Positions 1,597-37,160 of a DNA stretch of 38,553 bases are shown here, piece by piece. This DNA is from a virus, in the IMG/VR virus record IMGVR_UViG_3300020157_000007, positions 1 through 38,553 of that record; one strand, written 5' to 3'. The position numbers and the translations under genes were made by a program. How positions within the stretch are numbered: position 1 is the first letter of the stretch; each line of letters opens with the position of its first letter. Below the pieces are notes generated by a model that made no database searches, had not been told where the DNA came from, and was given only the letters and a program-made list of their open reading frames with translations.

Positions 1597-1845
1597 TTAA
1601 GGAGTGGTTGTCATAAAGGCTGGCGTGTGATCGCCGACGTAGGCACCGAGTTGGTTGAACTCGTGGAACTCGACGGCTTCCTCGTAGGTCATGCCGTAGG
1701 ATTCCAGTTGAGCGATGACGCGGTCGTAGTCGTAAATCACGAATGCTTCCGATCCGAATCGGCTGGCGACCCCGAGGATGCAGTCGTCGAAGCCGTCCAT
1801 CAGCAGGAGGTCTGGGTTTATGTCTGCGATTTGATCACGTGTCAT
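1597..1845 (-). CDS. Small conserved phage protein of unknown function (82 aa)
   Basis: The protein starts MTRDQIADINPDLLLMDGFD and ends with an acidic and aromatic segment (EEAVEFHEFNQLGAYVG, then DHTPAFM). I recall this pattern from many phage genomes as a small protein without assigned function; I cannot give it a role. The ATG at 1845-1843 is preferred over an ATG at 1929, because that longer version would translate straight through the GGGGACAC repeat cluster (giving VSPLFP-type peptides). The gene lies between the repeat cluster and the primase-helicase in the same transcription unit. There is no Shine-Dalgarno in front of it; the preceding bases are CGACCTTCCCTT. Confidence -1.
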   Translation of the reverse strand: MTRDQIADINPDLLLMDGFDDCILGVASRFGSEAFVIYDYDRVIAQLESYGMTYEEAVEFHEFNQLGAYVGDHTPAFMTTTP

Positions 1846-1860: not shown

Positions 1861-1954
1861 AAAAAGAGGGGACACTTTGGACTGCACGGAAATGGTGGGA
1901 TTAAGTTGCAGTCCAAAAAGAGGGGACACTTCGGCTAAAAAGAGGGGACACTTT
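1861..1954 (+). repeat. Cluster of three GGGGACAC-type repeat units
   Basis: Three copies of AAAAAGAGGGGACACTT lie at 1861, 1915 and 1937, all in the plus orientation. They fill the gap between the 70-aa and 82-aa genes of the minus operon. The third copy abuts the TGA stop of the 70-aa gene. The first two copies flank an inverted repeat. The same core recurs inside two protein genes (near 19108 and 36497). Similar GTGTCCCCTCTTTT strings are, as I recall and cannot verify here, dispersed REP-like repeats in some environmental bacterial genomes. Confidence -1.
1876..1917. repeat. 11-bp inverted repeat (stem-loop) within the repeat cluster
   Basis: TTTGGACTGCA at 1876-1886 is the exact reverse complement of TGCAGTCCAAA at 1907-1917, with a 20-base loop. 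The arms continue directly into repeat copies one and two, so the unit reads motif, stem, loop, stem, motif. No T-run follows on the transcribed strand, so it does not look like an intrinsic terminator. Confidence -1.
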
Positions 1955-2166
1955 CAGGGTTCGCTGTCGCTGTTCAGGTCGTATTCCGTCGCCTCCAGGA
2001 GCGCGATGCGGAGCTGGCTCTCGGTCGCCTGCGCGGTGCCGCAGAGCATTCCGAGGCGTTCGTAGAATCGGTACTTACCTTCCGGTGAGAGGTGCTCGGG
2101 TGCTTTCTGGCCGTGCAGAGCCTGCGTGATAGCAGCTGCGCGGATTTCTGGTGGTTGATGGCTCAT
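1954..2166 (-). CDS. Hypothetical protein (70 aa)
   Basis: This is a small soluble, charged protein beginning MSHQPPEIRAAAITQALHG and ending in an acidic tail (LNSDSEP). I do not recognise a domain. Its ATG overlaps the stop of the VRR-NUC gene (ATGA at 2163-2166), so translational coupling is likely and the gene is probably real. The stop codon runs directly into the third GGGGACAC repeat. It sits between nuclease and primase genes, so a replication-related role is possible but unsupported. Confidence -1.
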   Translation of the reverse strand: MSHQPPEIRAAAITQALHGQKAPEHLSPEGKYRFYERLGMLCGTAQATESQLRIALLEATEYDLNSDSEP

Positions 2167-16547: not shown

Positions 16548-18587
16548 ATGGTCGCAGAAAAAAATCGCATAGTAGACGGCCTCCTCACCGCTGAAGGTGG
16601 GGTGGACAGCGGTTTTTCGCCCTCACTCATTCAACCGAACCAGCTAGCATGGGCGGTGAACACAACGGTGCGCGGAGGATTTCCTAAAGCGCGGCCGGGG
16701 ATTTGGACCAAGCTGCTGACGTTTAACGATCCTACGGTGGTCTACAACGGCGGTTACTACAACGCTGCGGTGCAAGCGGCTTTCAAGGAAGGGTTCTTTC
16801 AGGGGTGCGGAGCTTACATCAACGACAACGGAGACCCTTATATTTACGCTTCAATCGGAGGAAAAAACTTCCAGATTGACATCGGAAACAATTTCCTAGT
16901 CACAGATCAAACTCCTCAAATTTCAACGTTTTCAGTCAATACACGAGGCCGCGTATCAAATGTGGCAACCTACGTATGCGGTGCTCCTCATAACTTGTTT
17001 CCTGGCATGGTGGTGCGCCTGCCAGAGCCTGTTGGCGCCCTCTTTACCGCAGGATTCTTCGGCGATTTTGTTGTCCAGACGATTCCAAGCCCAACAACTT
17101 TCACGACCTACAGCCCAGGAGTTGATGCCGGCCCCCTTCTGGGGCCAAATTTTACTGGCTATTTGCTAGCGGCAAACAATCCGAATGCAGCTCACGTCTA
17201 CTTTCAGCAAGCGGAGAACTGGCTGATAATTCAAGACGGCCTGAATGCTCCCTATCTCTACGACGGAACTTCGTTTAGACGATCTGCAAGCGATGAGGTT
17301 CCAGTTGGCGGCCCAATGGCATACGGAAAAGGACGCCTCTGGGTTGCGAACGGATCGGAATACTACGGCGGAGACTTGGTCTACGGTGATCCTGCATTTG
17401 GAAGAAACTCCGTCATTCGATTCACAGAGAACACATTCATCAATGAGGGCGGCGCATTTGCGGTCTCAAACGGACCGATCACAGGGCTGGCATTCGCGGC
17501 CAACCTGGACACGTCCCTTGGCGACGGCGACCTGCTGGTTTTCACCCCGACCGCCACTTACGCGTTTAACGCGCCTGTGGACCGGGACGTTTGGAAGGAT
17601 CTCAGTTATCCAATCCAGCGATTCGCACTCCTGAATTTCGGATCGTTCAACCACGAATCTATCGTGCCGGTGAACGGCGATCTCTTTTTCCGCGCTCAGG
17701 ACGGAATCCGTTCGTTGATCTACGCAAGACGTGATTTTACTGAGTTTGGAAACACACCGATCAGCCGGCAGGTTACTCGTGCAATAGCTTACGACACGGA
17801 GTTTTACCTAACGGCTGCTAGCTCCGTGAACTTCGACAACCGGATGCTGATGACCATTCAGCCTCAGAAGATCAACGGCAGAGGCATCGTGCATCGAGGA
17901 CTCGTAGTGTTAGATTTCGATCTCGTCTCTGGAATGGGCCGAAAATTACCTCCGGCATGGGAGGGTGTTTGGACTGGAGTCGATGTATTCCAGATGCTCA
18001 CCATCCGAATTCAGAAACAGGATCGATGCTTCATGTTTGGGTTGAATCAAGGGGACATCGGGCTCTTTGAGGTCACAAAGAACGGCCAGTTTGACTTCGA
18101 TGGATACGATGATGTTCCGATCGATTGGACCATTGAGACCCGGTCGATCACGTTTGCGGAACCATCTAACAAAAAGCGCCTAGTAAGCGCCGAGCAGTGG
18201 TATGACCAGGTGATGGGCAACATCGAAGCCAAGGTCTACTTCAAGGCTAACGAGGGCGAGTGCTGGCAACCATGGGCTGAGATCAAGGATTGCGCCAAGT
18301 ACCGCAACTGTGAACCAGGCGAGATTTCCTGCCCCCCTGCGGTGATCAACTGCCAGGAGGTAAAATACTACCAGCCCCCTGCAAGATCACGTATTGCCCT
18401 ACCGCAGCCTCCAGACAAGTGCGACGTGCAGACCGGGGGATTTACCCGCGATGGCTATGAGTTCCAGCTGCGATACGTGAACACCGGCCGCTTCCGACTC
18501 AAGCGCGTGGCCATGGTTGCTCAACGTCTCCAGGAGGATATCTACGGCGATCTCAGCCGCGTCGCCTGTCCGCTGCTCTCCGAATAG
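16548..18587 (+). CDS. Tail nozzle-like protein (podovirus tail tube B type), 679 aa
   Basis: The N-terminus with LAWAVNTTVRGGFPKARPG resembles the N|GG..KRPG start of T7 gp12-like tail nozzles, and the long series of beta segments that follows fits the beta-propeller core. Residues about 128-195 (VSNVATYVCGAPHNLFPGM, then IPSPTTFTTYSPG) form one copy of the short beta module repeated in the next gene. The C-terminal 100 residues are cysteine-rich (CWQPW, then four Cys within 25 residues), which suggests disulfides. The ATG at 16548 is chosen over 16506 because it leads directly to a normal N-terminus. It opens the plus-strand tail operon, head-to-head with terminase. Assignment is by pattern, moderate confidence. 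Confidence -1.
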   Translation: MVAEKNRIVDGLLTAEGGVDSGFSPSLIQPNQLAWAVNTTVRGGFPKARPGIWTKLLTFNDPTVVYNGGYYNAAVQAAFKEGFFQGCGAYINDNGDPYIYASIGGKNFQIDIGNNFLVTDQTPQISTFSVNTRGRVSNVATYVCGAPHNLFPGMVVRLPEPVGALFTAGFFGDFVVQTIPSPTTFTTYSPGVDAGPLLGPNFTGYLLAANNPNAAHVYFQQAENWLIIQDGLNAPYLYDGTSFRRSASDEVPVGGPMAYGKGRLWVANGSEYYGGDLVYGDPAFGRNSVIRFTENTFINEGGAFAVSNGPITGLAFAANLDTSLGDGDLLVFTPTATYAFNAPVDRDVWKDLSYPIQRFALLNFGSFNHESIVPVNGDLFFRAQDGIRSLIYARRDFTEFGNTPISRQVTRAIAYDTEFYLTAASSVNFDNRMLMTIQPQKINGRGIVHRGLVVLDFDLVSGMGRKLPPAWEGVWTGVDVFQMLTIRIQKQDRCFMFGLNQGDIGLFEVTKNGQFDFDGYDDVPIDWTIETRSITFAEPSNKKRLVSAEQWYDQVMGNIEAKVYFKANEGECWQPWAEIKDCAKYRNCEPGEISCPPAVINCQEVKYYQPPARSRIALPQPPDKCDVQTGGFTRDGYEFQLRYVNTGRFRLKRVAMVAQRLQEDIYGDLSRVACPLLSE

Positions 18588-18588
18588 T

Positions 18589-21500
18589 ATGCCTTCTTCA
18601 AACCCAGTCGATTACGGCGCAGATCCCTGTGGACTGAGAAACAGCGCGTGGGCGATCAACGAATGTCTGTTTGCTGCGCTGCGTTGCGATTTTCCAGTGG
18701 GGACATTCCTGCTTGGATCGAGTCCTGGGGCGAAGATTATTAACCGTGTCCGCACCGCAGGCGTTGCGACGTTCAACACGTCCACCCCGCACGGACTGGT
18801 TGTCGGGGAAAAGATCACCTTGTACGGGTTTACAGACGGCACCTTCAATGGCACCGGGCCGTTACAGTTTGGATTTGCGGTTCTCAGCATACCTACTCCG
18901 ACGCGATTTACAGTGTCGATGCCGCTGCCAGCATATCCCGATGCCCCCCTGGTCACCGAAGACGGCTGGATCAACCTCATCGGTGGCGGTTACACCTCGT
19001 CACTTGTGATGGGATACCCACCGTTGACGGGGGTCATAAACAATGTCGCGTTTACAGGCCAGGGCATTGGAAAGACGATCCTGAAGTTTGCTGACAACGC
19101 TTCAACCAAAAGAGGGGACACTTTTGGGTTTAATATCCAGATGCTGAAAACTCTGGGAAATTACACAGGGTCTGGAGCTGTAGGGGCACCTGGAGCTTAC
19201 GCGGGCGCGCCCCTGAACAGCATCAACTGTAAGAACACCCTGATCGAGGATATCACGTTTGATGGCAACTACGCAAACAATTCGGTTGCGGATATCAAGA
19301 TCGTATCGGTGCAGCGTACAAATGGGATCAACACGTACACCGTGGACAAGCCATTGTACGCACCTGCGCTTTCAGGGACTCAATTTTATTCCGTACCTCC
19401 TCCGGCATACATTCCTCCAATTTCACCTGCTCCGTACACTAACATCAGCGCGATTGGGCAGTATATCAGCAACGTGGTGACCACTGGCCCTGGAAATGAT
19501 GCTTCGTTTGTTGGTTTTGGCAACATCACTAACGTAACTTCGTTTTCGTTTCAGCGCGACCTAAGGGTGGTGCTTTTACGTGCAAGAATAAATCCGTTTG
19601 GATATGCTATCTACACTAAGCATCCGCAGTGGAATTTTGGATTTACAACTGGAGATTCAATAAATGTTACAGGGTTTTCAAATGCATCTTTCAATGGCAC
19701 GTTTATAGTTGCTGGATTCCTTTCAACCGAAGAGGTTTACTGCTTAAATGCAGCACCTACGACTGCAACTCAGATTTTTGCGTTTACACGAACCGCAGGA
19801 AATGCAATTTACGATACTTCAACTCCGCATGGTTTTATAGGAGGTGAAACTGTTTTAATAGAAGGGCTTTCGAATCCTGCATTTAACGGTACGTTTGTTG
19901 TAAATGGGTATCCAACACCAACTCAGTTTACGTGCGCTAACGCAGGCACAAATCTGCCAGTCACATCTAGTGTTGGATACGTTTACAAATTAGTAAATGA
20001 AAACGCCCGTGCTTGGGCTTATCCAAACGTGGCTCTTACGCCGCAAACAAAAGCTGGAGTAAACTCACTTTACACAGTCGCAGGAATCAATCACGTCGGA
20101 GAGAACGCGCTAGTTCAGAATAACCAATTCTACGACTTTGGAGTCGGGATTGCTGACGCTGAGACGTTCATCGTAAAATCGTTCCTGCCCATGAACGTGG
20201 ATGACCTCACGGCTGGCGCTAAGGTGCTCAACAACGATTTCAGCTATCAAGGCAGAAACTCGATTCAAGGTACGCTGTACCCCGGAAACGCGGAGGCAAA
20301 CACGCAGTGCGCTGTTGGCGGTTACTCCAGCCTGGTAAATCCAATCAACGTGGTGTCTCGTGTTGGCGGCGTTGCGACTTACACCTGCGTGATGAAGCAC
20401 ACGTTGAGGGTGGGGGATGTGGTGCTGGTGACGATGACTGCGGTTCAATTTGCTCAGCGCAATGGTGGTATAGCTACGTATACTACTTATGGAACGCATT
20501 TCGCAAATGTTGGCGCAACGGTTAAAATTCAAGGTATTGTTACTGATGCTTCATTTAATGGAACTTGGACGGTTGCATCTATTATAGACGATTTGAATTT
20601 TACTGTTGTTCAGGCGTTACCAAACGTATTTCCAGCAGTAGTAGCGAACGTCACACTTTACGTAAATTCGACAGTGGTAAGCATTCCGGACGCGTTTAAG
20701 TTTACAGTCAACGCGCCTGGCCCAAACATCCTCCCCGGCCTCTACCTTGACGGCCAGGTGATCATGCTGCGCAGTCGGAGAATCTTTGCCTCTGGATGCG
20801 AGTTTAAATACAACCGTGTCCAAGGCGGCATTGACGTGGTAAACCAGCAGAGCCCTGTCCATGCTGTCACGGCCCGTGAAACCAGCGGGATGGACGTTAG
20901 CTACAACAACTTTGACGGTTTCCACGATACCTGCTTTTACGTCGATTCCTATCATCACAAAGGAACACATATCCATCATAACTCGGCGTTGAACGTCTCG
21001 GCGTTTGTTTCCTTGGTTGTGCAGGATTGGTTTACGCTGATCGCTGCTACGGGAGAGGCGAATCCTGAGACCTACTCGACGTTGATCGCCGCTCACAAGG
21101 ATATGCTGATTGAGAATAATGACGTTCTCTTGACTGGCCCAGCATCGTGGTTCTATCAAACTGCATACCCTCCACTGGATGCAGTGTTCCTAATCAACAA
21201 TCACGACGTAAATAAATCCATCTGGTACTACCCGACGGACTACCAGATACCGATCTCAACCGTAACGCGTGCGGCAGGAATTTCCACGTTTACGACGGCT
21301 TCAGCTCACGAGCTTCAGGTCGGCATGGAGGTTTCAACGGTTTCGGTTACAGATGGCACGTTCAACGGAGTTTTTGCAGTTCTCAGCATTCCAGCTGCGA
21401 ATCAGTTCACGGTTACAAATGGCGGCACACCTGGAAGTTCAACCGGCGGTTTCCTCGGTATCAACAGCCCGGTCCACTTCCCGTGGGAAATCAAACCCAT

Positions 21501-21939
21501 CGGATTCCAGCGCACTGCCGGCGTCGCCACGTACACAACCAACAAGGCGCACCAGCTGGTTTTTGGCGCTCACGCGACCGTTGAGGGGCTTAGCAACGCT
21601 TTATTCAACGACGAGGTAATTGTGACCGGAGTTCCTACGCTGACGACATTCACCTGCGCGAGCCCTGGTCCCAACGTCGCGTTTACATCATCAACCGGCA
21701 ACTTCCTGAGGTACGTCGATAACATCCAGATTGGATGCAACACGGTGCGCCGGTTGAGTGGAAACGGATTGGCGGTAAACAACGGTGGCAAGTTCGGGAG
21801 CGCGTTTCTCCAGGGACGCCCTAGCCGCTGCGTTGCGCCTCTTGAGCAGTTCTTCTATTTCGATTGTCCCGAGGGCTGTTTGGCGCTTGAATGCGACCCA
21901 GGCCCGTGTAAGCCAAACGACTATCTTTACCGCATCTAA
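18589..21939 (+). CDS. Tailspike: beta-helix protein with seven inserted beta modules (1,116 aa)
   Basis: The start SNPVDYGADPCGLRNSAWAI is the classic opening of pectin-lyase-fold tailspikes (DYGADPTG type). Right-handed beta-helix rungs appear as NTLIEDITFDGNY, ALVQNNQFYDFG, AKVLNNDFSYQG, GMDVSYNNFDGF, THIHHNSALNV and DMLIENNDVLL. Interrupting the helix are seven copies of a roughly 55-residue module with pattern RtaGvaTyxTxxpHgLxxGdxVxixG and then FNGTxxVxxIPtxtxFT, which annotation pipelines often call E1-FCCH-like. The last 35 residues hold five cysteines (DCPEGCLALECDPGPC). It should bind and perhaps cleave host surface polysaccharide. The start lies one base after the previous stop. 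The module-rich parts (about 19500-20080 and 20440-20690) are AT-richer than the flanks. Confidence -1.
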   Translation: MPSSNPVDYGADPCGLRNSAWAINECLFAALRCDFPVGTFLLGSSPGAKIINRVRTAGVATFNTSTPHGLVVGEKITLYGFTDGTFNGTGPLQFGFAVLSIPTPTRFTVSMPLPAYPDAPLVTEDGWINLIGGGYTSSLVMGYPPLTGVINNVAFTGQGIGKTILKFADNASTKRGDTFGFNIQMLKTLGNYTGSGAVGAPGAYAGAPLNSINCKNTLIEDITFDGNYANNSVADIKIVSVQRTNGINTYTVDKPLYAPALSGTQFYSVPPPAYIPPISPAPYTNISAIGQYISNVVTTGPGNDASFVGFGNITNVTSFSFQRDLRVVLLRARINPFGYAIYTKHPQWNFGFTTGDSINVTGFSNASFNGTFIVAGFLSTEEVYCLNAAPTTATQIFAFTRTAGNAIYDTSTPHGFIGGETVLIEGLSNPAFNGTFVVNGYPTPTQFTCANAGTNLPVTSSVGYVYKLVNENARAWAYPNVALTPQTKAGVNSLYTVAGINHVGENALVQNNQFYDFGVGIADAETFIVKSFLPMNVDDLTAGAKVLNNDFSYQGRNSIQGTLYPGNAEANTQCAVGGYSSLVNPINVVSRVGGVATYTCVMKHTLRVGDVVLVTMTAVQFAQRNGGIATYTTYGTHFANVGATVKIQGIVTDASFNGTWTVASIIDDLNFTVVQALPNVFPAVVANVTLYVNSTVVSIPDAFKFTVNAPGPNILPGLYLDGQVIMLRSRRIFASGCEFKYNRVQGGIDVVNQQSPVHAVTARETSGMDVSYNNFDGFHDTCFYVDSYHHKGTHIHHNSALNVSAFVSLVVQDWFTLIAATGEANPETYSTLIAAHKDMLIENNDVLLTGPASWFYQTAYPPLDAVFLINNHDVNKSIWYYPTDYQIPISTVTRAAGISTFTTASAHELQVGMEVSTVSVTDGTFNGVFAVLSIPAANQFTVTNGGTPGSSTGGFLGINSPVHFPWEIKPIGFQRTAGVATYTTNKAHQLVFGAHATVEGLSNALFNDEVIVTGVPTLTTFTCASPGPNVAFTSSTGNFLRYVDNIQIGCNTVRRLSGNGLAVNNGGKFGSAFLQGRPSRCVAPLEQFFYFDCPEGCLALECDPGPCKPNDYLYRI
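18745..18927 (+). repeat. Inserted beta module, copy 1 of tailspike
   Basis: Encodes VRTAGVATFNTSTPHGLVVG through FNGTG to IPTPTRFTV. It is a protein-level repeat shared with later parts of the same gene. Its bases are not AT-enriched, unlike copies 2, 3 and 5. Confidence -1.
19108..19125 (+). repeat. GGGGACAC-type repeat inside the tailspike gene
   Basis: AAAAGAGGGGACACTTTT matches the intergenic copy at 1862 over 17 bases and is read in frame as KRGDTF. The flanks AACC and GGGTT make it nearly palindromic at the ends. A chance 17-base match is very unlikely in a window this size. Confidence -1.
19580..19950 (+). repeat. Inserted beta modules, copies 2 and 3 of tailspike
   Basis: Copy 2 (TTGDSINVTGFSNASFNGTF and what follows) lacks the usual first strand; copy 3 (RTAGNAIYDTSTPHGF, then FNGTFVVNGYPTPTQFT) is complete. 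Both lie in an AT-rich patch of the gene. Confidence -1.
20351..20727 (+). repeat. Nested beta modules, copies 4 and 5 of tailspike
   Basis: Copy 4 begins RVGGVATYTC and HTLRVGDVVLVT, is broken at about 20440 by complete copy 5 (RNGGIATYTTYGTHF through FNGTWTVASIIDDLNFTVV), then seems to resume with VVSIPDAFKFTVNAPGP. The inner copy is AT-rich: 68 of 180 G/C at 20461-20640, against 37 of 60 at 20701-20760. Confidence -1.
21259..21710 (+). repeat. Inserted beta modules, copies 6 and 7 of tailspike
   Basis: Copy 6 reads RAAGISTFTTASAHELQVG through FNGVFAVLSIPAANQFTV; copy 7 reads RTAGVATYTTNKAHQLVFG through FNDEVIVTGVPTLTTFTC. They are separated by about 20 residues and precede the last beta-helix rungs. 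Confidence -1.
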
Positions 21940-26186: not shown

Positions 26187-29100
26187 ATGCCACGTATTGT
26201 TAAAATTCCAGGCGTTGCCGAACTCTCGTTTCCTGATGATCTCGGTGAAGACGCAATGCTTGAGGCGACTAAGAGTTTCTACGAGCAGTCTAAGCAGGGT
26301 GCAATAGGGGCCGCTAGTTCTGCCGCAGTTCGTGAGCCTGCGCGCCAAGTCGGCGGAGCAATGAAGGCTCTTTCGCGACTTGGTGATTGGTTTCAACCGC
26401 CTGACTACAATCCGGAGACCGGAGACCCTATTTGGCAGAAAGCTGAATCAACGTTTTTTGGACCTGAGACCACGGTTCCGGTTGAGAAGCCGGCGCCGGT
26501 CCCCATCGAACAGACGGGTTTGTATCAGGCCGGCGAGTCACTTCAGCGAGGTGCCGAGAAGATGTTCCCGGTCAACCCGTTGCGCTCGGAGGATTTTCTC
26601 ACGCAAGTGGGCTCTGGAATTGGATCACTGCCGACCTCGATAATCCCTTACGCCGGACCGTTGATCTACGCAGCTAGTGCTGGTGAAGATGCCGCTGAAA
26701 AGGCTGGTCGATTTTACGACAACAAAATCTCCGAGGCGATGGCGTCTGGAAACCGCGCCGAGGCAGATCGTTTGCAGGAGGAGAAGAAATATCAACAGGC
26801 GCTTCAATTTGGAATCAACGCGCCGTTAGGCTATGCGACCGAACGCTTCATGGGCGTCGTTCCAGGTCTTAAGAAAATCACCGAAGGCGGAGGAAAACTA
26901 CTTCCTAAGCTCGTAGCTGGACAGGCAGTTGATAACACAAAGAAAGTTGCAACCTTCCTTACTAAGCAGGGGTTAAAAACCGCAGGAGGAGAATTTCTTC
27001 AAGAAGGTTCGGAGCAAGTAGGCGGAAACATCGGAGAAAAGTTCTACAATCCGGATGCTGAATTTACATCTGGAGTCTTAGATGCGTCAGCAGCTGGAGG
27101 AGCTGTTGGCTTCCTCGCCTCCGTGCCATTGAATTTGCTTGGGTCTAAGCTGCGGAAGAATCGGCTGGATAAGCTTCAGGAATTCCGAGATACCAGATTG
27201 GCTGAAGGGCCGCTGTCGGGTCAGCAAGTCAGCGAAATCAATAAAAGGATAGTCTTAGGACAACCGCTAACAGAGGGTGAGCCAGGAGCTTTTTTAAGCC
27301 TTCTGAGCGACGATCCATCTACTCAGTCTTCAGTCGGAGGAAACAACGCTGAACTCCTCCCCAACGCCACAGCCACTCTCGCTGGCATCAACTCCGGCGG
27401 CGCGCCTTCTGGACGGATTAGCATCACGCCACCAGAGGAAGGCTTGACTATTCCGGAAATGCAGCTGGAGACAGAGGCTGCCGGGGAAGAAGCAACTCAG
27501 ACGCCAGTTGAAACTGTTGCGCCCGTTGGTCCAATCACCCAAGAAGCGACAGACCTTCTCAGTAAAGTTGATGCCGGTGGTGTTCCGATGTCCGTCACGG
27601 CAAACCTGGAGCGGATTGCTAACGAGAATGGCATCACGGTTACCGGCGCTGATACCCCGAACACGATCATTTCGCAGCTGCGACAGAAGCTAACCCCAAC
27701 CACCACCGAAAATGCCGTTCAAGAACAAGGCGCAGGTCAAAGCCTGCTTCGCGCAGAAAAACCGCAACCCGAAGTCCAAATGGGACTGTCAGAAGTGGAT
27801 CAAGGAGGGCGGCCTGCCGAAGGAGCAGGGGCCGAAATCCAAACGGAAGTACAGCCGCTGACGATCGAGGAGACCAACGAGTATAACAGGATTGTTGACT
27901 TACTTAATGGAGCGTCTGCATACGATATGCTTGAGGAGGAGCAACTAAACCGCTTCGAGGAACTCGCCGGCCGTGTTGGCGAGCTAGAGCGGGCGGGCTT
28001 TGATTTCGATGAGACTACGGGGTGGACTAAGCCTGGGGTCACTCCCGCTGCTACTGCACCTGTGGCGCCCACGATTTTTCCTGAAGAGACCACTCAAGTT
28101 AGTGCGGAACAGCAGGAAATGGAGCGACTACGTAAGATTTTTACTGGTCCTCCGAGACCGCTTTCAGTTCCGGAGACGGTGGTTCCTGCTCCCGCTCCCG
28201 CAAAACCTCGTTCCGCAACAAGTTTGGCTGAGATTGGTGAAATTGGCGCCGCAACGGGTGAAAACTTAAGGGAGACTTTATGGAACGCTTTCTCAACTGG
28301 CCAAGGTCCTAAAATTACCTCGGAAGATCCTGTCGTAAAGAACGCGAAAATTGTTGCCAACAAAACCGGAGCGACGATTCAAAAAGCTGATTTCCTCACG
28401 TTTGCTGACGAGTTTTCAAAAGCCCAGAATCCGGCCGATAAAATTGCTGCGATGCAGAGCTTAGCAAACAAAGTATCACCAGCACGCCCCACCCCACCAA
28501 CGCGCACCGTCGTACTAACCCCAGGTGCGGTTACGGTAACTCAGACTCCGGTTAAGCCTACCCCTCCTGTACCCGCTCCAGCTCCGGCTCCATCAACCAT
28601 TTCCGATGAAAACCAAACTCTACTCAAAAACATCGGCATCATCGCAAAATCCAATGCGGACGGCACGATTTCACTCTCTGGCGGGACGTTCAGATGGAAA
28701 GACGACATTAAAGAGTTCGGAGGACGCTTTGCGGATAAATCGTGGCGAATCTCTGCCGATGGGTTTGGAAAATTCATCGAACGAGCAAGACCTAGTGCAA
28801 CAGTTACTGTCGGACAGCCAGGTGGCCGACCAGCTTACGTCGCCGATTCTGGCCTCCGAAAACTCCGAGCGGATGCTGACAACCGGCCCGACCGAAGCGG
28901 ACTTGATGGAGGTGTTGGGAACTATGTCGGTGAGGATACGCAACAGCTGATACGCCAAGGGGAGGCTTTCGGTATCCCCAGCATCGTGATTGACGAGCAG
29001 ATTGAAGACGTGGCGTTGATGGTCCAGGCGTATCGCCAAGGGCGACCGCTCTTCATGCTCTCCAGCGCACCGGGCACTGGTAAGACGTTCGTGTTGGGCG

Positions 29101-32100
29101 CGGCGATCCGAGAGCTTCGTCGCTCTGGCGCTAAAAAGATCACCTACGTAACGCTGCGAAAGGAGTTGATCACGCAGATAAAGCAGGATCTGAAGGACTA
29201 CGACATCGGCGACGTAAACTTTATCACCTACGCGGAGATGAAGGACCGCCCCGCAGAAGCGTCCGACGTGCTAATCTTTGATGAGGCTCACGCGATTAAG
29301 AACCTGTCAGGCGACGGATCTGAACAAGCCAAGAAGGCTCAAGAATGGATGTCCCAGACTAAGTTCCCGGTGCTTTCAACGGCCACGCCATTTGAAAACC
29401 CAGTTCAGGCTGCGTACCTCGCTAGCACCGGCATATTTGAATCGTTTGGTGGGTTTAAAAACTTCGCCCTGGCCTATGGAGCGACATCAGTAAACACCGG
29501 CAACGACACGATCTTGGTTTGGAGACGTACTAATACCAGCGACGCCGACCAGGTGGCTGCGCGGAATTTCTTCAAGAAAGAAGGTATCTTCACAGCAAGA
29601 AAGACTCGTCTTCCAAAGGACCAGGTGGACTCGCGCCTGGTGAAAGTTACGGCCGATAGCGAGTACACCAAGATGTACACGGAGTTCGAGAAAGCCGTTG
29701 AAGAGAACAAAGGTTCCTTGGCTGGATTCTCAAAGGCTTGGATCAAGAACTTCCAGAAGCGTATCTTGGAGGCGTCCAAGATCAACATTGCTATCAACGA
29801 AGCTAGCAACGCACTCAAGGCCGGGCGCTGGCCGATCATCTTTGTTGAGACCAAGGCGGAACGGAAGATCGACATTCCGAGGCTGATTGACCTTGAGGCC
29901 CAGTGGCGTCGCGAAACAGATCTTGCGCGTCGCATGAACGAGCGTGGCCCGAGTCGGGCACAATTTGGCCTGCCTCCGATGGGCATCACTGACGTGCTAG
30001 CCTCATTCATGGAAGAGACAGGCATCTCAGTGATTGAGATACCGTCTGCTGAAGACACGATCAAAGCCAAGTTTGGAGAAGACAATGTCGCGATCTTCAC
30101 TGGATCTGTAACACCCGCCAAAGCTCAAAAGAATCTCGATAAATGGCGCGGAAATAAGCCAATGGTCCTGGTCGCCACTATGGCCAAGGGCGGCACCGGA
30201 CTGTCGTTGCATGATAAGGTTGGAAATCACCAGACGACCCAGATCAACGTCAACCTGCCATGGACCGCCACTCAGGTGGAACAGGTGTCGCTACGGTCCG
30301 CACGGTACGGACTCAAAGGTATAGCGCAGATGCAGTGGCTGTTCGCGGATAACATTCCGTTTGATCGCGAGTTGGCTCAGCGAGTTGGCTCCCGCATGGC
30401 TGATATGGGCGCGCTGGTTCACGGCGAACTCCCGACGACAGCTGCGAGCATCCAGAACTGGAACTTTGAAGATGATTCGTTCTCAGAGGCCAATGCTGAC
30501 CAAGCCGACAAGAATGATCTGATTAAGCAGGAGCAGCCGCCGACGCCTCCGGTGGCTCCCACACCTGCACCCGAACCTGCCGCACCGCCCGTCACTGCCC
30601 CTAAGAAGCGCTACAAAGCCCGTGAGTGGGCGTCCAAAGGAGACATCCTAGATGCCATCATCAGCCTCGGTGGCGTCATGTCTAAGTCTCAGGCCAAGAA
30701 GGAAAAGCGCCTAGAGAAGATCAAGGACCTCTACGACGATGCCCCAAGGCTCGATCCGTACTTCAATAAAATCTTTGGAGGAAGGTCACGCGGTACAGCG
30801 AGCCGAAATCAGCCAGACCAGTTGCTCGCAGAGCTTGCCACAGAAAACCCTGGCAAGTACGGGGACATGAGCGTGCCTGAGTTCTGGGCTGAAGTTGAGA
30901 AGGCTGCACGGGGCCGCAAGGGGGACGTGGTCGCAATGAAGCAAGAGGCTAAGGCCGCCGCTGCCGGCGCCGAAGAAGCGATGGGCCTCGACGCGTTCTT
31001 GCAGGCGCAGGATGATGCGTTCGTAGATTCTCAAACCGAGGGGATGCAGAATGCTGGAGAACCAGACGGACCTGTTCAAATCTCAGTCGGAAGTCTTGCG
31101 ATCGGAGACAAGTTCTCTGTCCAGGGCGAGTCGTTTGAGGTTACAGCTGTCACTCCAGATGGAGAGTACACGATTCGTGATGGCGACAAATTTGGAGTTC
31201 AACAGCTGACCGAATACGACACACTGTTTGTCGATGAACCTCCTGATCGCGGAGGCGGAGATGCGTTTGAATTTCCTACCGAAGGGCCGGCTGCGCCTAC
31301 CGAACGTAAGCCCCGTCTCGCAGCTGGACAGAACCAGGGAGACTTAATCTCCAGCACACAGGTCGAAGACTTTGCCCTGGTTGGAGAGAAGGGTGTAGAC
31401 CTCGAAGCTCGTAAGCAAAAGGCCCAGGCCGCCGCTCGTGCCGCTGCTGAAGCTAAGGCGGCCCAGGAGAAGGCGCAGACGCAGATAGACCTAGGCGACG
31501 CCGTCGCCGAAGCCTCCGACGCGATCGCCCAGTTCGTTGAGTCTATCACCCCCAAGGCTGGCATCACCGAGGGCCCCACCCCAGAGGAGTCTGCGCGCCG
31601 GGTTCTCGAAGCCCTCGTTAATCTGGCATCCGTCGCGATTCGAGCCGGCGTCCGAAACGCATCGCTATGGGCGACCAGCTTGCAACTGAAGCTCAGCCCG
31701 GCGTTGCAGTACGCCTGGGACCGCGCTCAGGGATCTACGGTTGAGCCCACGCCAGAGGTTATCGCTGATGTTTCCAGCCTGCCCGAGCGGGTAAATGGCA
31801 GCGACTTCGGCATGATCTACAGCACGCCTGATAAGCCGGTTAAAACCAAGCGCGGCGCCTTCGAGGACACTGTCGCCGGTCGCCGTTCCAGAACTCCCGA
31901 GGTGCAGAAAGCCGGTGTAAAACTGGCGGTTGATGCGTTTAACGAGGCGGGGATTAAATTCCGCCAGGTGGCAGACGGGTTGTTCGCGCCGGTCGATGGA
32001 GTTAACCAGGAGGATGCTGGAAGAAAACTGATCGAGGTCGCTAAGGCGAAGATCGCAGAGGCTAAGAAGCAAGGCCGCAGCGATACCATAGCGGAACTGA

Positions 32101-35100
32101 TTCAGTCGCTACGCAACGACTTCGGTGCCTCCGAGGCATTCAGCCTCGATACCCGCGATGAACTCTATCTGATCGGTCAGTCCGAGGCGTCTGAGTTCGG
32201 CAAGAACCTGGCGAGCTTGAAGGCATCGGTGAAGGACTTCGTGGCCGTTGCTCGCAACGTGCGCGGATTCCTGACATCGGCCATCTACGACAGCTTTAAT
32301 GGTGAGAGCGTCAAGGGTGTGATGGACAAGATTATGACCGAGTTCCGTGGTCAGTTCACTGAAGCGGAGATCCAGAAGATCGTTGGCGAGAAGCCTGACC
32401 TCCAGGAGATGCTGAATCGGTTTGGAATCTTGGCGTTAGCCGATACCGGCGGCCGTGTGTACCGCACTGTCCAGGCGCGTCTGACGACCAAGAAGCCGAC
32501 AACCCAGAAGGCAAAGGAGCAACGCGCCCTTGAGGATGAAGCTATCGACCAGATTATCGAGAACGCTTTAGCCCTCGGGGTTACCGAGCCTCCCCAGCCT
32601 CCGAATCGAAAGCTCACTCCCGACGAGCGCCTCGCGCTGATGACTAAGCCTGCGACCCAGGCCAAGGTCCAGAAAGCCACCGAGGATGCAGTCAAGCAGG
32701 CCGAGTTCAACGCTGGATGGGCGGTTATGATGGCCAGCGCAGCCGGCAACGAGGAGCTTAGTGCTCAGTACCAGGAAGCCAAAGACGCCGGAGAAGAGCC
32801 TGATCCAGAGGCGATCGAGGAAGGTCTCGACCTCCCGAAGTACGCTCACTGGCGCACGATCCGCGACGGGTTCCTGAACTACTCGCCGACCACCCTGAAA
32901 CTCGCCCAGGACGTGATCCGTGGCCGGTTCAAGGGCACGCAGTTCGGAACCAAGAAGGTTGCCCCTCCGGCGCCTGCCAAGATCAACCTCGTTCGCCTGG
33001 TGCAGTCTCCCAACGCCGAGATGAGCCGCGTGATCGGAGAGCAGCTGACCGCTATCGAAGGAGTGATGGACCTGGCCGGCGCGTCCCCCGAGGCCAAGGC
33101 CCGCGTGATGCAGATGGTTACAGCCAATGTGGGTTCTCAGATCCAGCTGGCCCGCCAGCGCGTGCTGAATAACTTCCTGGACGTGAAGGCCAAGACTGGC
33201 CCCACAACCGCGAGCGATAGTCTTCAGCGGCTAATCAACGCCGGCATCACCGAGGATAAGCGCTACCAATCTGAGCCCACCCGTAAACTCCTGAAGCGCG
33301 TCGCCAAGACCTACCTGACTGCCGATGAGCTTTCAGGCATGGCGACCAAGACTCGGGCCGAGAAGCTCGCGTTCCTCACCGGCAAGCTCAATCAGATCAC
33401 GGCAGCTGAGAATCTGAAGGATGAATGGATGCAGGGTGCGGTCTGGACTTACCTGACTGAGCGGATGATGGAAGCTGAGAACGCAGCGGTATCCCAGATC
33501 GTGGGCGCCAAGGACGTTAGCTTCGATCCAGCTCAGCCGAAGACCGACGCACAGCTGGCGGCCGACCGGGCTAAAGCTGTCGATCGCTTAGCAGGCGGTA
33601 TCCGTGCCGGCCTGCTGGACCAGCGCATCGCTGAGAGCGTCGCTAAGAACCCCGCGTTGCAGCGGCTGGTTCCCAAGATGAGTGACCTAGTGAAGCGGGT
33701 TCTCAACACCCCGCAAGCTGGTCAGGCAAAACTGGCCCAGGCGTTCTCAGAGGCTCTACTGGCTGAACTTGCAATCGACCAGGCGTTGGCCGACAAGACG
33801 GGCCTCGCGCTGGCCAAGGCATTCCAGGTGAAGTTTGAGCGGGCTCGCATCCAGGCACTCGACTTGGCGGTGAAGAATCTCACCCCGAAACAGCGTGAGG
33901 AAGTTGGCCCAGGTCGCCCCCTGTGGCAGAAGATCGAGGAGTTTGTGAACGCAGGAGGCATGAACTCAGCGGCGCTACTACAAAGCATCGCTAAGAAATC
34001 AGGCTGGAAGGTGCCGACCGACGAAGAGGTTTCCCGCCTTCGAGACCTGGCGCGGCTGGAGCAGGAACTCAGCACGGCCAGTGAGGAGGAGATTAAGTCA
34101 GGCCAGACCGACGAAGATGTTGCTGCTAAGAACGCTGGCCCACGCCAAGACATCATGCGTGAGATCCAGATGCGCTGGGCGCGGATGACTATGCCAATCC
34201 GTGGCAACAAGCAGAACTTGGCCAGGGCGATCAACGAGGTCACCTCGGCTAACCTGCTGTTCAAGATGAGCTTCATCGCTAAGCAGTTGATGGACGTTGC
34301 TACGCAGATGTTCTACTACACGCCGACACGTGCAGTGGGGACGGCGGTAGAGCGGTTTAAGACTAGCCGCGATCCAAACCGAACGACTCGCCTGTGGAAG
34401 GATACCAGTAACGCGCTCGAAGACGCCTACAAAGCGCGCTTCAAGGCGCTCAACATGGCGCTGACGTCAGCACTGGAGGCGGCCAAAGGTCGAGCCGAGA
34501 AGGATACCATCATGGGTATCCAGAGTGGTATTCGGGCGCTGGACCGCCTTAACGCGCAGGCAACCGAGTATTACAAGAAAGGCGACTACGCACGCGCTAC
34601 TGTGGCTCGCCTTATTAGCCTCACCCAGTTGGCTTTCCGGTTCGCTTCATCCCTCGACGCGTTTCAAGGGGTCCTGGCCGAACAACAAGAGATCGGAGCA
34701 TGGACAGAGTCCCAGCTGCGTCTTCAAGGGATGGCGCCTGAGCTGGCTCGCAAGACCGCCAAGACGATCATTGGAGACGCGATCGTTGAGTACGCGTTAG
34801 CTCAGTCCGTTATCGCAGACGACCCTAATATCTCACCGAAGGAGCGCCGCGCAGCCGCATGGAACGTCGTGCGTTCCCGGCAGTATCAGCGGATCAAAGC
34901 CGCTGGATTGGATGCAGGCGCGCTCAAAGAGATTACACAAGATCTCCGGTCAACCATCGGTTGGAACATCGAGGAGACCTCAGGTTTTGGTGGCTTGATC
35001 GGTAAGGGTATGAAGAACGCCAGCGAACTGATGGCTAAAGTTGGTATTCCTAATCCTGTCGGTCGGTTCTCGAACGCGATCGCCATCGGCATCAACCGGG

Positions 35101-36134
35101 CACTCACGTTTGCCGGTGGTGGGTTTGTACCGAATGCCTTTGAGGGGTCTGCGTGGTACAAGAACGAGGCCGACAAGGTTCAGCGTAAGATCGAGGCTGC
35201 TACTGGCCTAGGCTTGTCGGGCGTATTCGCGGCGCTGGTTCTGTCCGGAGCACTTCGAGTCTTCACAAGGTGGCCTGATGACAAGGAAGAGGCTGACCTC
35301 TGGGAGCGCGATGGCCATAAACCGAACACCATGGAGCTTGACCTGCCAGATGGAAAGATACTGCGAGTGTCGCTCAACACTGGACCAATCCAGATTGTTC
35401 GGCCGGCTTTAGCTGCGATCGGTCAGCTTCAGTATGAACAGGCAAGACGCAACCGGCTCAACCAGAAGGCTGGAGCCGCCGCTAAGAAGAAAGGCTTGAA
35501 GTTCGAGCCTAGGGATTTAACAGCTGGAGAAATCGGATGGGCACTAGCCTACGGCGCCTGGTCTGCCATAGGCCAAGGCCGAACCGCTTCCGGTCTGATC
35601 GGCTCCGGAACGTATCGCGGAGCACCCGACATGGGGAAGATCGCCGCCGCTACCGTGAGCCCGCTGATTCCGTTTGGTCCCCTCATGCGCGAGGCAACCG
35701 CTATGTCCGGCGCGCAGTTCAACCCGAAGGACCAGACGTTCATAAACCTCCTGGCGCCAACACCGTGGAGCGGAAAGGTTGACCGTAACTTCCTCGGAGA
35801 CCCAGTGGGTACACCGCGCGCCACGGAACGTATTATGTCAATCCTGACGGGTGGCAGCGCAATCGTGGGCGGCAATGAAACTGACCGCGCTTACCAGGTG
35901 CTGGCTAAAACCGGATGGACTCCAGCGACCCAACAGAACAATCGGTTCCATCAGTTTGGACGCGTGGAACGGCAGGCTACACCAGAGGAGTTGACCAGGA
36001 TGCAAGAGGTGCGAGCGGTCGAGCTTAAGACCCGCATCTCGCAACTCGATCCAGCGACAGCAACCAAACGGCAGCTGGACCGCATCGAAGATATCGCGAA
36101 CGCAAAATCGAAAAAATCAGTGGGAATCCGATAA
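26187..36134 (+). CDS. Giant polyvalent phage protein with SF2 helicase core (3,315 aa)
   Basis: This single frame fills a quarter of the window. The N-terminus (IPGVAELSFPDD) matches a short domain common in large phage proteins. Hydrophobic stretches lie near 140-165 and 300-320. Residues 829-862 (FRWKDDIKEFGGRFADKSWR) look like a small domain seen in polyvalent proteins. A complete helicase core spans about 925-1410: Walker A SAPGTGKT (958-966), DEAH (about 1030), STATP (about 1061), ATMAKGGTGLSL (about 1327) and QVEQVSLRSARYG (about 1362). An LPD-like helical part (1470-1590) and an SH3-like beta domain (1630-1684) follow, then some 1,500 mostly helical residues. Near the end are PVGRFSN (2954-2960), similar to the PLxRFG motif, and one membrane-like segment (3009-3028). 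I found no cysteine in it. It is probably packaged and ejected with DNA, possibly protecting or remodelling incoming DNA as DarB-like proteins do. Confidence -1.
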   Translation: MPRIVKIPGVAELSFPDDLGEDAMLEATKSFYEQSKQGAIGAASSAAVREPARQVGGAMKALSRLGDWFQPPDYNPETGDPIWQKAESTFFGPETTVPVEKPAPVPIEQTGLYQAGESLQRGAEKMFPVNPLRSEDFLTQVGSGIGSLPTSIIPYAGPLIYAASAGEDAAEKAGRFYDNKISEAMASGNRAEADRLQEEKKYQQALQFGINAPLGYATERFMGVVPGLKKITEGGGKLLPKLVAGQAVDNTKKVATFLTKQGLKTAGGEFLQEGSEQVGGNIGEKFYNPDAEFTSGVLDASAAGGAVGFLASVPLNLLGSKLRKNRLDKLQEFRDTRLAEGPLSGQQVSEINKRIVLGQPLTEGEPGAFLSLLSDDPSTQSSVGGNNAELLPNATATLAGINSGGAPSGRISITPPEEGLTIPEMQLETEAAGEEATQTPVETVAPVGPITQEATDLLSKVDAGGVPMSVTANLERIANENGITVTGADTPNTIISQLRQKLTPTTTENAVQEQGAGQSLLRAEKPQPEVQMGLSEVDQGGRPAEGAGAEIQTEVQPLTIEETNEYNRIVDLLNGASAYDMLEEEQLNRFEELAGRVGELERAGFDFDETTGWTKPGVTPAATAPVAPTIFPEETTQVSAEQQEMERLRKIFTGPPRPLSVPETVVPAPAPAKPRSATSLAEIGEIGAATGENLRETLWNAFSTGQGPKITSEDPVVKNAKIVANKTGATIQKADFLTFADEFSKAQNPADKIAAMQSLANKVSPARPTPPTRTVVLTPGAVTVTQTPVKPTPPVPAPAPAPSTISDENQTLLKNIGIIAKSNADGTISLSGGTFRWKDDIKEFGGRFADKSWRISADGFGKFIERARPSATVTVGQPGGRPAYVADSGLRKLRADADNRPDRSGLDGGVGNYVGEDTQQLIRQGEAFGIPSIVIDEQIEDVALMVQAYRQGRPLFMLSSAPGTGKTFVLGAAIRELRRSGAKKITYVTLRKELITQIKQDLKDYDIGDVNFITYAEMKDRPAEASDVLIFDEAHAIKNLSGDGSEQAKKAQEWMSQTKFPVLSTATPFENPVQAAYLASTGIFESFGGFKNFALAYGATSVNTGNDTILVWRRTNTSDADQVAARNFFKKEGIFTARKTRLPKDQVDSRLVKVTADSEYTKMYTEFEKAVEENKGSLAGFSKAWIKNFQKRILEASKINIAINEASNALKAGRWPIIFVETKAERKIDIPRLIDLEAQWRRETDLARRMNERGPSRAQFGLPPMGITDVLASFMEETGISVIEIPSAEDTIKAKFGEDNVAIFTGSVTPAKAQKNLDKWRGNKPMVLVATMAKGGTGLSLHDKVGNHQTTQINVNLPWTATQVEQVSLRSARYGLKGIAQMQWLFADNIPFDRELAQRVGSRMADMGALVHGELPTTAASIQNWNFEDDSFSEANADQADKNDLIKQEQPPTPPVAPTPAPEPAAPPVTAPKKRYKAREWASKGDILDAIISLGGVMSKSQAKKEKRLEKIKDLYDDAPRLDPYFNKIFGGRSRGTASRNQPDQLLAELATENPGKYGDMSVPEFWAEVEKAARGRKGDVVAMKQEAKAAAAGAEEAMGLDAFLQAQDDAFVDSQTEGMQNAGEPDGPVQISVGSLAIGDKFSVQGESFEVTAVTPDGEYTIRDGDKFGVQQLTEYDTLFVDEPPDRGGGDAFEFPTEGPAAPTERKPRLAAGQNQGDLISSTQVEDFALVGEKGVDLEARKQKAQAAARAAAEAKAAQEKAQTQIDLGDAVAEASDAIAQFVESITPKAGITEGPTPEESARRVLEALVNLASVAIRAGVRNASLWATSLQLKLSPALQYAWDRAQGSTVEPTPEVIADVSSLPERVNGSDFGMIYSTPDKPVKTKRGAFEDTVAGRRSRTPEVQKAGVKLAVDAFNEAGIKFRQVADGLFAPVDGVNQEDAGRKLIEVAKAKIAEAKKQGRSDTIAELIQSLRNDFGASEAFSLDTRDELYLIGQSEASEFGKNLASLKASVKDFVAVARNVRGFLTSAIYDSFNGESVKGVMDKIMTEFRGQFTEAEIQKIVGEKPDLQEMLNRFGILALADTGGRVYRTVQARLTTKKPTTQKAKEQRALEDEAIDQIIENALALGVTEPPQPPNRKLTPDERLALMTKPATQAKVQKATEDAVKQAEFNAGWAVMMASAAGNEELSAQYQEAKDAGEEPDPEAIEEGLDLPKYAHWRTIRDGFLNYSPTTLKLAQDVIRGRFKGTQFGTKKVAPPAPAKINLVRLVQSPNAEMSRVIGEQLTAIEGVMDLAGASPEAKARVMQMVTANVGSQIQLARQRVLNNFLDVKAKTGPTTASDSLQRLINAGITEDKRYQSEPTRKLLKRVAKTYLTADELSGMATKTRAEKLAFLTGKLNQITAAENLKDEWMQGAVWTYLTERMMEAENAAVSQIVGAKDVSFDPAQPKTDAQLAADRAKAVDRLAGGIRAGLLDQRIAESVAKNPALQRLVPKMSDLVKRVLNTPQAGQAKLAQAFSEALLAELAIDQALADKTGLALAKAFQVKFERARIQALDLAVKNLTPKQREEVGPGRPLWQKIEEFVNAGGMNSAALLQSIAKKSGWKVPTDEEVSRLRDLARLEQELSTASEEEIKSGQTDEDVAAKNAGPRQDIMREIQMRWARMTMPIRGNKQNLARAINEVTSANLLFKMSFIAKQLMDVATQMFYYTPTRAVGTAVERFKTSRDPNRTTRLWKDTSNALEDAYKARFKALNMALTSALEAAKGRAEKDTIMGIQSGIRALDRLNAQATEYYKKGDYARATVARLISLTQLAFRFASSLDAFQGVLAEQQEIGAWTESQLRLQGMAPELARKTAKTIIGDAIVEYALAQSVIADDPNISPKERRAAAWNVVRSRQYQRIKAAGLDAGALKEITQDLRSTIGWNIEETSGFGGLIGKGMKNASELMAKVGIPNPVGRFSNAIAIGINRALTFAGGGFVPNAFEGSAWYKNEADKVQRKIEAATGLGLSGVFAALVLSGALRVFTRWPDDKEEADLWERDGHKPNTMELDLPDGKILRVSLNTGPIQIVRPALAAIGQLQYEQARRNRLNQKAGAAAKKKGLKFEPRDLTAGEIGWALAYGAWSAIGQGRTASGLIGSGTYRGAPDMGKIAAATVSPLIPFGPLMREATAMSGAQFNPKDQTFINLLAPTPWSGKVDRNFLGDPVGTPRATERIMSILTGGSAIVGGNETDRAYQVLAKTGWTPATQQNNRFHQFGRVERQATPEELTRMQEVRAVELKTRISQLDPATATKRQLDRIEDIANAKSKKSVGIR

Positions 36135-36170: not shown

Positions 36171-36182
36171 GACTGACGTATG
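36163..36182. promoter_or_regulatory. Inverted repeat overlapping the recT-like start codon
   Basis: CATACGT (36163-36169) and ACGTATG (36176-36182) are exact inverted arms around TGACTG. The right arm ends with the start codon and the left arm covers the putative -10 box. A second short palindrome, TGGCACTTGCCA, sits at 36153-36164. Both look like operator or RNA-control sites. Confidence -1.
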
Positions 36183-37160
36183 AGCAACCTACAAGTCGCA
36201 ACGCAGCAACAGCAACCTCTCAGCGCGTTCAGTTCGGAGAACGCGTTCGTCTCAGTCCAACGCATGGCCAAGGCCCTTGCGTCCAGCACCCTCGTTCCCG
36301 ACGCCTATCGGGGCGAGGCCAACTTGGGCAACTGCATCATCGCGCTGGAACTCAGTCAGCGCATCGGCGCCTCGGTCATGGCTGTCATGCAGTCCATGGT
36401 TCCGATCCACGGCAAGCCCACCTGGTCTGCCTCGTTCCTGATTGCTACCGTCAACAGTTGCGGCCGCTTCTCTCCGATGCGTTTCCGCTGGGTCGGAAAA
36501 GAGGGGACAGATGAGTGGGGCTGCCGCGCCTTCGCAGTCGAGCGCGACTCCAATCTGGAACTCGTTGGCGCCTTGGTAAATATCAACATGGCAAAGGTCG
36601 AGGGTTGGTACGGCAAGTCTGGCTCCAAATGGAAGACCATGCCGGAGCAGATGCTCCAGTACCGGGCCGGCGCCTTCTGGTGCCGCACCTACGCGCCCGA
36701 GATCGCACTGGGTATGCACACCTCGGAAGAGGTCCAGGACACCCCAGCGGCCCAGCAAGTGGTCCAGTCGGTCACCGTGAGTTCATCCATCATGGACGTG
36801 ACACCGACGCCTCCCGCACCTGTTGAGCCTAAGCCGCGCAAGAAGAAGGAGGCCGAGGCTATCGCAATCGTGGAGCCGCCCGCTCCCGCCGCTCCTGAAC
36901 CCGCACCGGAGATCGTTGAGACCGCACCCCTCGCACCCGTTCCCGCACCGGAGCCTGAATTGGAAACCGTCGAAGGGACGCTAGCATCCGCTGGGATTAC
37001 CTACGAGCAGCTGGTGAAGCTAGTCATAGAATTGAAGTGGTGGGAAAACCCCGAAGCCTATCCCACGGTGGCAGACCTTCCTCCTGATATCTGCAACTGG
37101 ATCATCCGGAATAAGCGCGGTATCGGCCGTGCAGTGGTGAAGGCGGGAGGTGCGCTGTGA
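36180..37160 (+). CDS. RecT-family single-strand annealing protein
   Basis: Residues 20-190 follow the RecT pattern: FVSVQRMAKALASSTLVPDA, then a helix with NCIIALELSQRIGASVMAVM, SMVPIHGKPTWSASFLIATV, WKTMPEQMLQYRAGAFWCRT and APEIALGMHTSEEV. These proteins anneal complementary single strands during phage recombination. The C-terminal 130 residues are a proline/alanine-rich linker and a small helical domain (ITYEQLVKLVIELKWW), longer than in minimal RecT proteins. A RecE-like exonuclease lies two genes downstream, completing the usual pair. A GGGGACA-type repeat is embedded at 36497-36509 (read as GKEGTDE). There is no Shine-Dalgarno. Confidence -1.
   Translation: MSNLQVATQQQQPLSAFSSENAFVSVQRMAKALASSTLVPDAYRGEANLGNCIIALELSQRIGASVMAVMQSMVPIHGKPTWSASFLIATVNSCGRFSPMRFRWVGKEGTDEWGCRAFAVERDSNLELVGALVNINMAKVEGWYGKSGSKWKTMPEQMLQYRAGAFWCRTYAPEIALGMHTSEEVQDTPAAQQVVQSVTVSSSIMDVTPTPPAPVEPKPRKKKEAEAIAIVEPPAPAAPEPAPEIVETAPLAPVPAPEPELETVEGTLASAGITYEQLVKLVIELKWWENPEAYPTVADLPPDICNWIIRNKRGIGRAVVKAGGAL
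36497..36509 (+). repeat. GGGGACA-type repeat inside the recT-like gene
   Basis: AAAAGAGGGGACA matches the 13-base core shared by the intergenic cluster and the tailspike copy. The following base differs (G instead of C), so this is the shortest match of the five and could be a coincidence more easily than the tailspike copy. Confidence -1.

Follow-up and report, generated by a model that had tools for sequence, protein, structure and literature searches.

A 13-base string kept exact and in one orientation at three loci of a phage clade: a possible directional control site

Many members of a clade of uncultured phages of bacteria, with genomes of about 46-50 kb, carry the same 13-base string, AAAAGAGGGGACA, at the same three loci. 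The string looks like a phage control signal and not like bacterial repeat DNA, because the relatives keep it letter for letter at three places, even in two genes whose proteins allow other letters. Our leading, though tentative, reading is that of a clade-specific phage cis-element, a directional DNA-binding control site that is exact and has a single orientation. Short exact signals in phage coding sequence are hard to see, since protein constraint masks them; the same 13 bases frozen in two genes and two reading frames, and in a non-coding array as well, represent a clean case of nucleotide-level selection.

Five copies of the motif lie in the window (the whole stretch of DNA that was analysed, a virus record of 38,553 bases); they start at 1862, 1916, 1938, 19108 and 36497, all on the plus strand and three of them in an intergenic cluster, as reported in the preliminary description. 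Neither minus-strand copies nor copies with one or two mismatches were found in the window. The motif is the sole 13-mer with five occurrences there; the chance expectation for one exact 13-mer is 2 x 38553 / 4^13, about 0.001, the value already given in that description, while the shuffled window sequence yielded 0.79 matches at up to two mismatches and none of 100 shuffles reached five. The five copies are real and go beyond chance. A 17-mer, AAAAAGAGGGGACACTT, which is asymmetric and contains no palindrome, is common to all three cluster copies. The copy at 19108, inside the ORF at 18517-21939, matches it over 16-17 bases, and the one at 36497, inside recT (36180-37160), matches the cluster only over 13 bases and continues with GAT instead of CTT. 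Three motif loci are defined in this way, C (the array at ORF A), T (in a virion gene) and R (in recT), with the following features.

1597..1845, minus strand: ORF A, 82 aa, pI 4.05, phrog_13182 (unknown function), start codon at 1845
1861..1878, plus strand: array copy 1, AAAAAGAGGGGACACTTT
1876..1917, no strand assigned: core, located between the first and second array copies: inverted repeat with arms TTTGGACTGCA/TGCAGTCCAAA, its loop conserved
1915..1931, plus strand: array copy 2, AAAAAGAGGGGACACTT
1937..1954, plus strand: array copy 3, AAAAAGAGGGGACACTTT, spaced 22 bp from copy 2 and overlapping the gene B stop codon by its final base
1954..2166, minus strand: gene B, 70 aa, stop codon 1954-1956; in cassette-bearing phages the cassette begins at this stop
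18517..21939, plus strand: long virion-protein ORF, 1140 aa, weak matches to phrog_9998 and phrog_5838, true start uncertain; holds the T site
19108..19124, plus strand: T site, AAAAGAGGGGACACTTT, in-frame AAA AGA GGG GAC ACT TTT (KRGDTF)
36180..37160, plus strand: recT, RecT-like single-strand annealing protein (phrog_561)
36497..36509, plus strand: R site, AAAAGAGGGGACA, codons (GG)A AAA GAG GGG ACA, in a reading frame that differs from that of T

C, T and R all lie on one DNA strand, T and R as sense sequence and C as antisense to the ORF A leader, and the same genome strand is used for every site in every motif-bearing record. Other genes recognized in the window code for terminase, primase, helicase, exonuclease VIII-like, single-strand-binding and tail-fibre proteins, in addition to RecT. 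A giant protein of 3315 aa is encoded at 26187-36134; it has helicase motifs (ResIII, AAA_34), and large parts of it are not alignable in some close relatives. Nearly all of the 25 gene starts in the window are devoid of a Shine-Dalgarno sequence, one exception being that at 37157, and this scarcity could reflect a host in which such sequences are seldom used. At the right end of several relatives (G002, 41.3-43.4 kb; G007, G070, G071 and G075) a string like AAAGCCAAGGAGGCCAAGCCGTGA recurs, with a Shine-Dalgarno-like core and apparently located before the starts of tandem small ORFs. One relative, G004, also carries a ferredoxin-like auxiliary gene (phrog_3704; L153:14468-15010).

The distribution of the motif was determined in 2.9 million viral contigs. 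The 17-mer occurs in 20 viral records, 19 of them relatives of this phage and one unrelated (L008). The exact 16-mer gave 87 matches, 68 of which belong to the clade: 42 are T sites and 26 are C sites, the latter class being assigned by proximity to the operon genes, and the remaining 19 lie in unrelated contexts, several of them coding for KRGDTF or KRGDTL within other proteins. We judge the number of unrelated matches, by estimate, to be about what chance would give in such a collection. A search of annotated phages gave no close relative, and the open-access literature searched gave no report of the motif, although one may exist elsewhere. Not every member of the family has the motif: G070, G071, G073 and G075 are free of it, indicating that it is not essential. 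In the near-complete genomes that carry the motif, at least one of T and C is present. When the sites are placed on the terminase tree, T occurs across most of the family, R solely in the two clades that also have arrays.

At the T locus, 37 of 62 aligned homologous segments of the virion gene encode KRGDT, and the codons AAA AGA GGG GAC ACT are exact in 14 of 15 dereplicated lineages that share 67-93% nucleotide identity (median 72%). When the overlap with the upstream gene is excluded, the motif is the top five-codon window of the scanned region for synonymous identity (0.92 vs a mean of 0.53); when it is included, windows in the overlap outrank the motif. The permutation p at T is about 0.0014 with the sole exception, L236, removed, a removal chosen after L236 had been seen. 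Codon choice is also peculiar to the site: the T alignment has 11 conserved columns for Arg, 28 for Thr and 9 for Lys, and AGA, ACT and AAA, respectively, dominate a single one of these, always the motif column; GGG is dominant at the motif column and one other. AGA and GGG are rare codons, with 5% and 12% of codon usage in the window. The site is equally frozen in eight lineages that have neither array nor ORF A, so whatever reads T would not depend on an array RNA. At its start (18517-18640) the virion ORF shares sequence with the end of the ORF before it, and synonymous sites are strongly conserved there, as expected for overlapping genes. Ribosomal frameshifting at T was considered and rejected, the heptamer not being slippery by inspection.

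At the R locus, the motif columns are almost fixed for GGA, AAA, GGG, ACA and GAT in the two R-carrying clades; GGG, AAA, ACA and GAT dominate no other conserved recT column, and GGA only one other. The R window ranks 7th of 259 or 10th of 283, which constitutes moderate evidence. Two recT alleles that are 96.6% identical, L302 and L287, differ at exactly five motif codons, all synonymously, and are unchanged for about 19 codons on both sides of the motif; close alleles are in this sense all-or-none. G004 and G015 carry one-base variants of R. In recT alleles with 90-99% identity other patches are rewritten too, mostly synonymously, at codons -54 to -47 (about 36335-36358), +28 to +31, +43 to +47 and +116 to +119 counted from the motif, and a search for repeats of these patches in the rest of the genomes found none. 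Recombination of short patches may be at work in recT generally, and the rewriting of these other patches weakens any claim that is special to R.

The codons at T and R are frozen across diverged relatives though several of them are rare and nearby synonymous codons are variable; selection therefore acts on the nucleotide sequence. The comparisons show a clade-restricted exact element with one strand orientation, which is selected at the nucleotide level in T and R and which at C belongs to a cassette; several of the statistics are post hoc, and many of the relatives are contig fragments.

In the leftward operon, array C sits between gene B and ORF A, upstream of the latter; read from the minus strand, array copy 1 is the ORF A leader sequence AAAGTGTCCCCTCTTTTT, and 15 nt separate its end from the start codon of ORF A. 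Adjacent copies repeat every 22 bp, roughly two turns of the helix. Across the core, an 11-bp inverted repeat with arms at 1876-1886 and 1907-1917, the spacing is 52, 54 or 55 bp, so that helical phase is not kept there. The core is missing in the relatives G006 and G013 and is therefore dispensable, yet at least one motif copy is kept in every array except that of G049; exact copies number one to three per array, with a single copy in G002, G006 and G008. In the relatives examined the array is found only with ORF A, and the two are absent together; within the clade ORF A is always accompanied by the array, which in G049 is degenerate, drifted to AAAGTACCCCTCTTTT and TTGCCCCCTCTTTT. Where ORF A is lacking (L195, L199, L200, L205, L206, G005, G016 and G019), gene B runs straight into the primase leader. 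The empty site reads ...GACGACTAACCTCACTC..., whereas in the filled site gene B terminates in TGA at the array and TAACCTCACTC is the end of ORF A. Comparison of the empty with the filled site shows that the array and ORF A form a stop-to-stop cassette. The ORF A homologues of other phage families (phrog_13182) have no motif upstream, and the predicted fold of ORF A (pLDDT 86) gave no PDB match.

Under the directional DNA-binding reading, the motif would be recognized by a sequence-specific and probably monomeric or directional protein, encoded by the phage or by its host. The array, directly upstream of ORF A, would control ORF A, and the single T and R sites would act as polar control points, e.g. 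transcription roadblocks, on the rightward genes, in a stoperator-like manner. Such a protein would explain both the occurrence of T in the absence of C and the uniform strand. ORF A itself is a poor candidate, since its pI of 4.05 argues against binding to the array. No HTH-type or other candidate regulator was seen in the proteins scanned, and no accessory gene tracked the motif, the only correlated elements being spurious fragments inside the virion gene; on the leader strand no promoter-like site was found. Sites with one to three mismatches are not enriched and are, if anything, fewer than those of permuted motifs, an imperfect control because permutation breaks the runs of A and G. The absence of graded weaker sites is unlike most transcription-factor regulons. 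If a protein does read the motif, it would be a new directional phage control site.

The main rival to this reading, which we consider rather doubtful, is RNA-RNA pairing, in which the ORF A leader RNA would pair in trans with the virion-gene and recT mRNAs and regulate either those or ORF A. The leader contains one to three copies of AAGUGUCCCCUCUUUU, with perfect complementarity of 13-17 nt to both mRNAs, and the array is antisense to transcription while T and R are sense, although luck alone would produce this layout one time in four. Conservation that is exact and all-or-none would be expected if several partners must match, and three of four observed single changes in the target sites would still pair by wobble. 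The distribution of R is also in keeping with pairing, being limited to two array-bearing clades, and an exact R site goes with the array (6 of 8 with it vs 2 of 12 without; Fisher p 0.019, uncorrected for descent). Moreover, G049, with its drifted array, has lost both T and R while their amino acids were kept. Against pairing stands the T site, which is as frozen in the eight lineages that have no array or ORF A, and array and T show no association; in addition, no Rfam family was found in the window and the leader structure is not unusually stable. A more elaborate form, a multi-target antisense circuit in which the RNA of a mobile cassette pairs exactly with sequences inside two unrelated genes, the virion gene and recT, and these targets are synonymously re-coded to gain or lose the match, is more doubtful still; if RNA pairing does read the motif, such a circuit on a mobile cassette is what it would amount to.

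A site for packaging, replication or another polar processing of DNA (pac-, iteron- or Ter-like), with T and C as alternative placements, seems unlikely. It would account for the single orientation throughout the genome and for the presence of T or C in near-complete motif-bearing genomes; the contigs that close circularly fit headful packaging or circular replication, and the direct repeats with 22-bp spacing resemble iterons. The location nevertheless varies between phages, four relatives do without any site, R exists too, and neither a terminase small subunit nor a replication initiator was found to be linked to the motif. A constraint at the level of translation or of the protein, i.e. the KRGDT peptide or a pause at rare codons, with coincidental intergenic copies, is very improbable: KRGDT(F/L), encoded by the same codons, does occur in phage proteins that are unrelated, and AGA and GGG are rare, but the identical 13 bases are also frozen within recT, in another frame, and in one to three non-coding leader copies.

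The preliminary description had proposed that the motif may be a REP element captured from a bacterial host and moved by a RAYT (Y1) transposase, with a phage-specific binding site as the alternative; the results support this alternative and make the capture scarcely credible. The proposal drew on such strings as dispersed repeats in environmental bacterial genomes, and a few environmental bacterial matches do have GGGGACA-like repeats nearby (L082, L097). Among the bacterial matches listed for the 17-mer, one Flavobacterium site accounts for about 60, and the others are scattered singles that look like chance; the 17-mer occurs once per stretch, and no multi-copy dispersed locus is found among them. 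By inspection the Flavobacterium site reads as an intrinsic terminator, GAGGGGAC-GTCCCCTC-T5, and these matches were rejected as unrelated to the motif. The motif has neither a REP palindrome nor GTAG, the Y1 transposase profile PF01797 matched in 0 of 12 clade phages (a control profile matched in 5 genomes), and the coding copies are homologous codons and not insertions. It is essentially confined to the phage clade, to judge from the 16-mer matches, and many related phages keep it at the same loci.

A promoter of the T7 type is improbable. The motif resembles the SP6 promoter; no RNA polymerase match was found in the ORFs scanned or in the extra 8 kb or so of a complete relative, conservation stops at CTTT, and with the 22-bp spacing promoters would overlap. 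The phage RNA polymerase profile PF00940 was silent in 12 phages, and silent in the control set too.

The motif can be compared with four known systems. Like antisense leader or small-RNA regulation in phages, it includes leader repeats complementary to mRNAs of the same phage; unlike in those systems, phages that lack the leader still conserve the virion-gene target. Iterons are the direct repeats of plasmid and lambda origins. The array, with direct repeats of about 17-18 bp and, in most arrays, a 22-bp period beside replication genes (primase, helicase), is similar to them, but array copies go down to one, no initiator was found, and the virion gene contains an identical single copy, recT one of 13 bases. 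REPs consist of a palindrome with GTAG in front, occur in great numbers and are associated with a Y1 transposase (TnpA-REP/RAYT) (PMC8266576). They share with the motif only that both are short repeats and partly intergenic, whereas palindrome, GTAG and transposase set them apart from it.

The stoperators of L5, found in cluster A mycobacteriophages, are asymmetric conserved 13-mers read by a monomer, at several genome sites and with constrained orientation; there are more than twenty of them, which occupy promoters or short gaps between genes and are oriented according to transcription (PMC9283540). The phage motif, too, is an asymmetric string of about 13 bases, repeated in the genome with constrained orientation. 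Unlike stoperators, it occupies three loci, two inside coding sequence and one against transcription, and no repressor was found; because of these differences in number, intergenic placement and orientation rule, we do not claim that it belongs among them. L5-type stoperators are nonetheless the nearest in kind to the motif.
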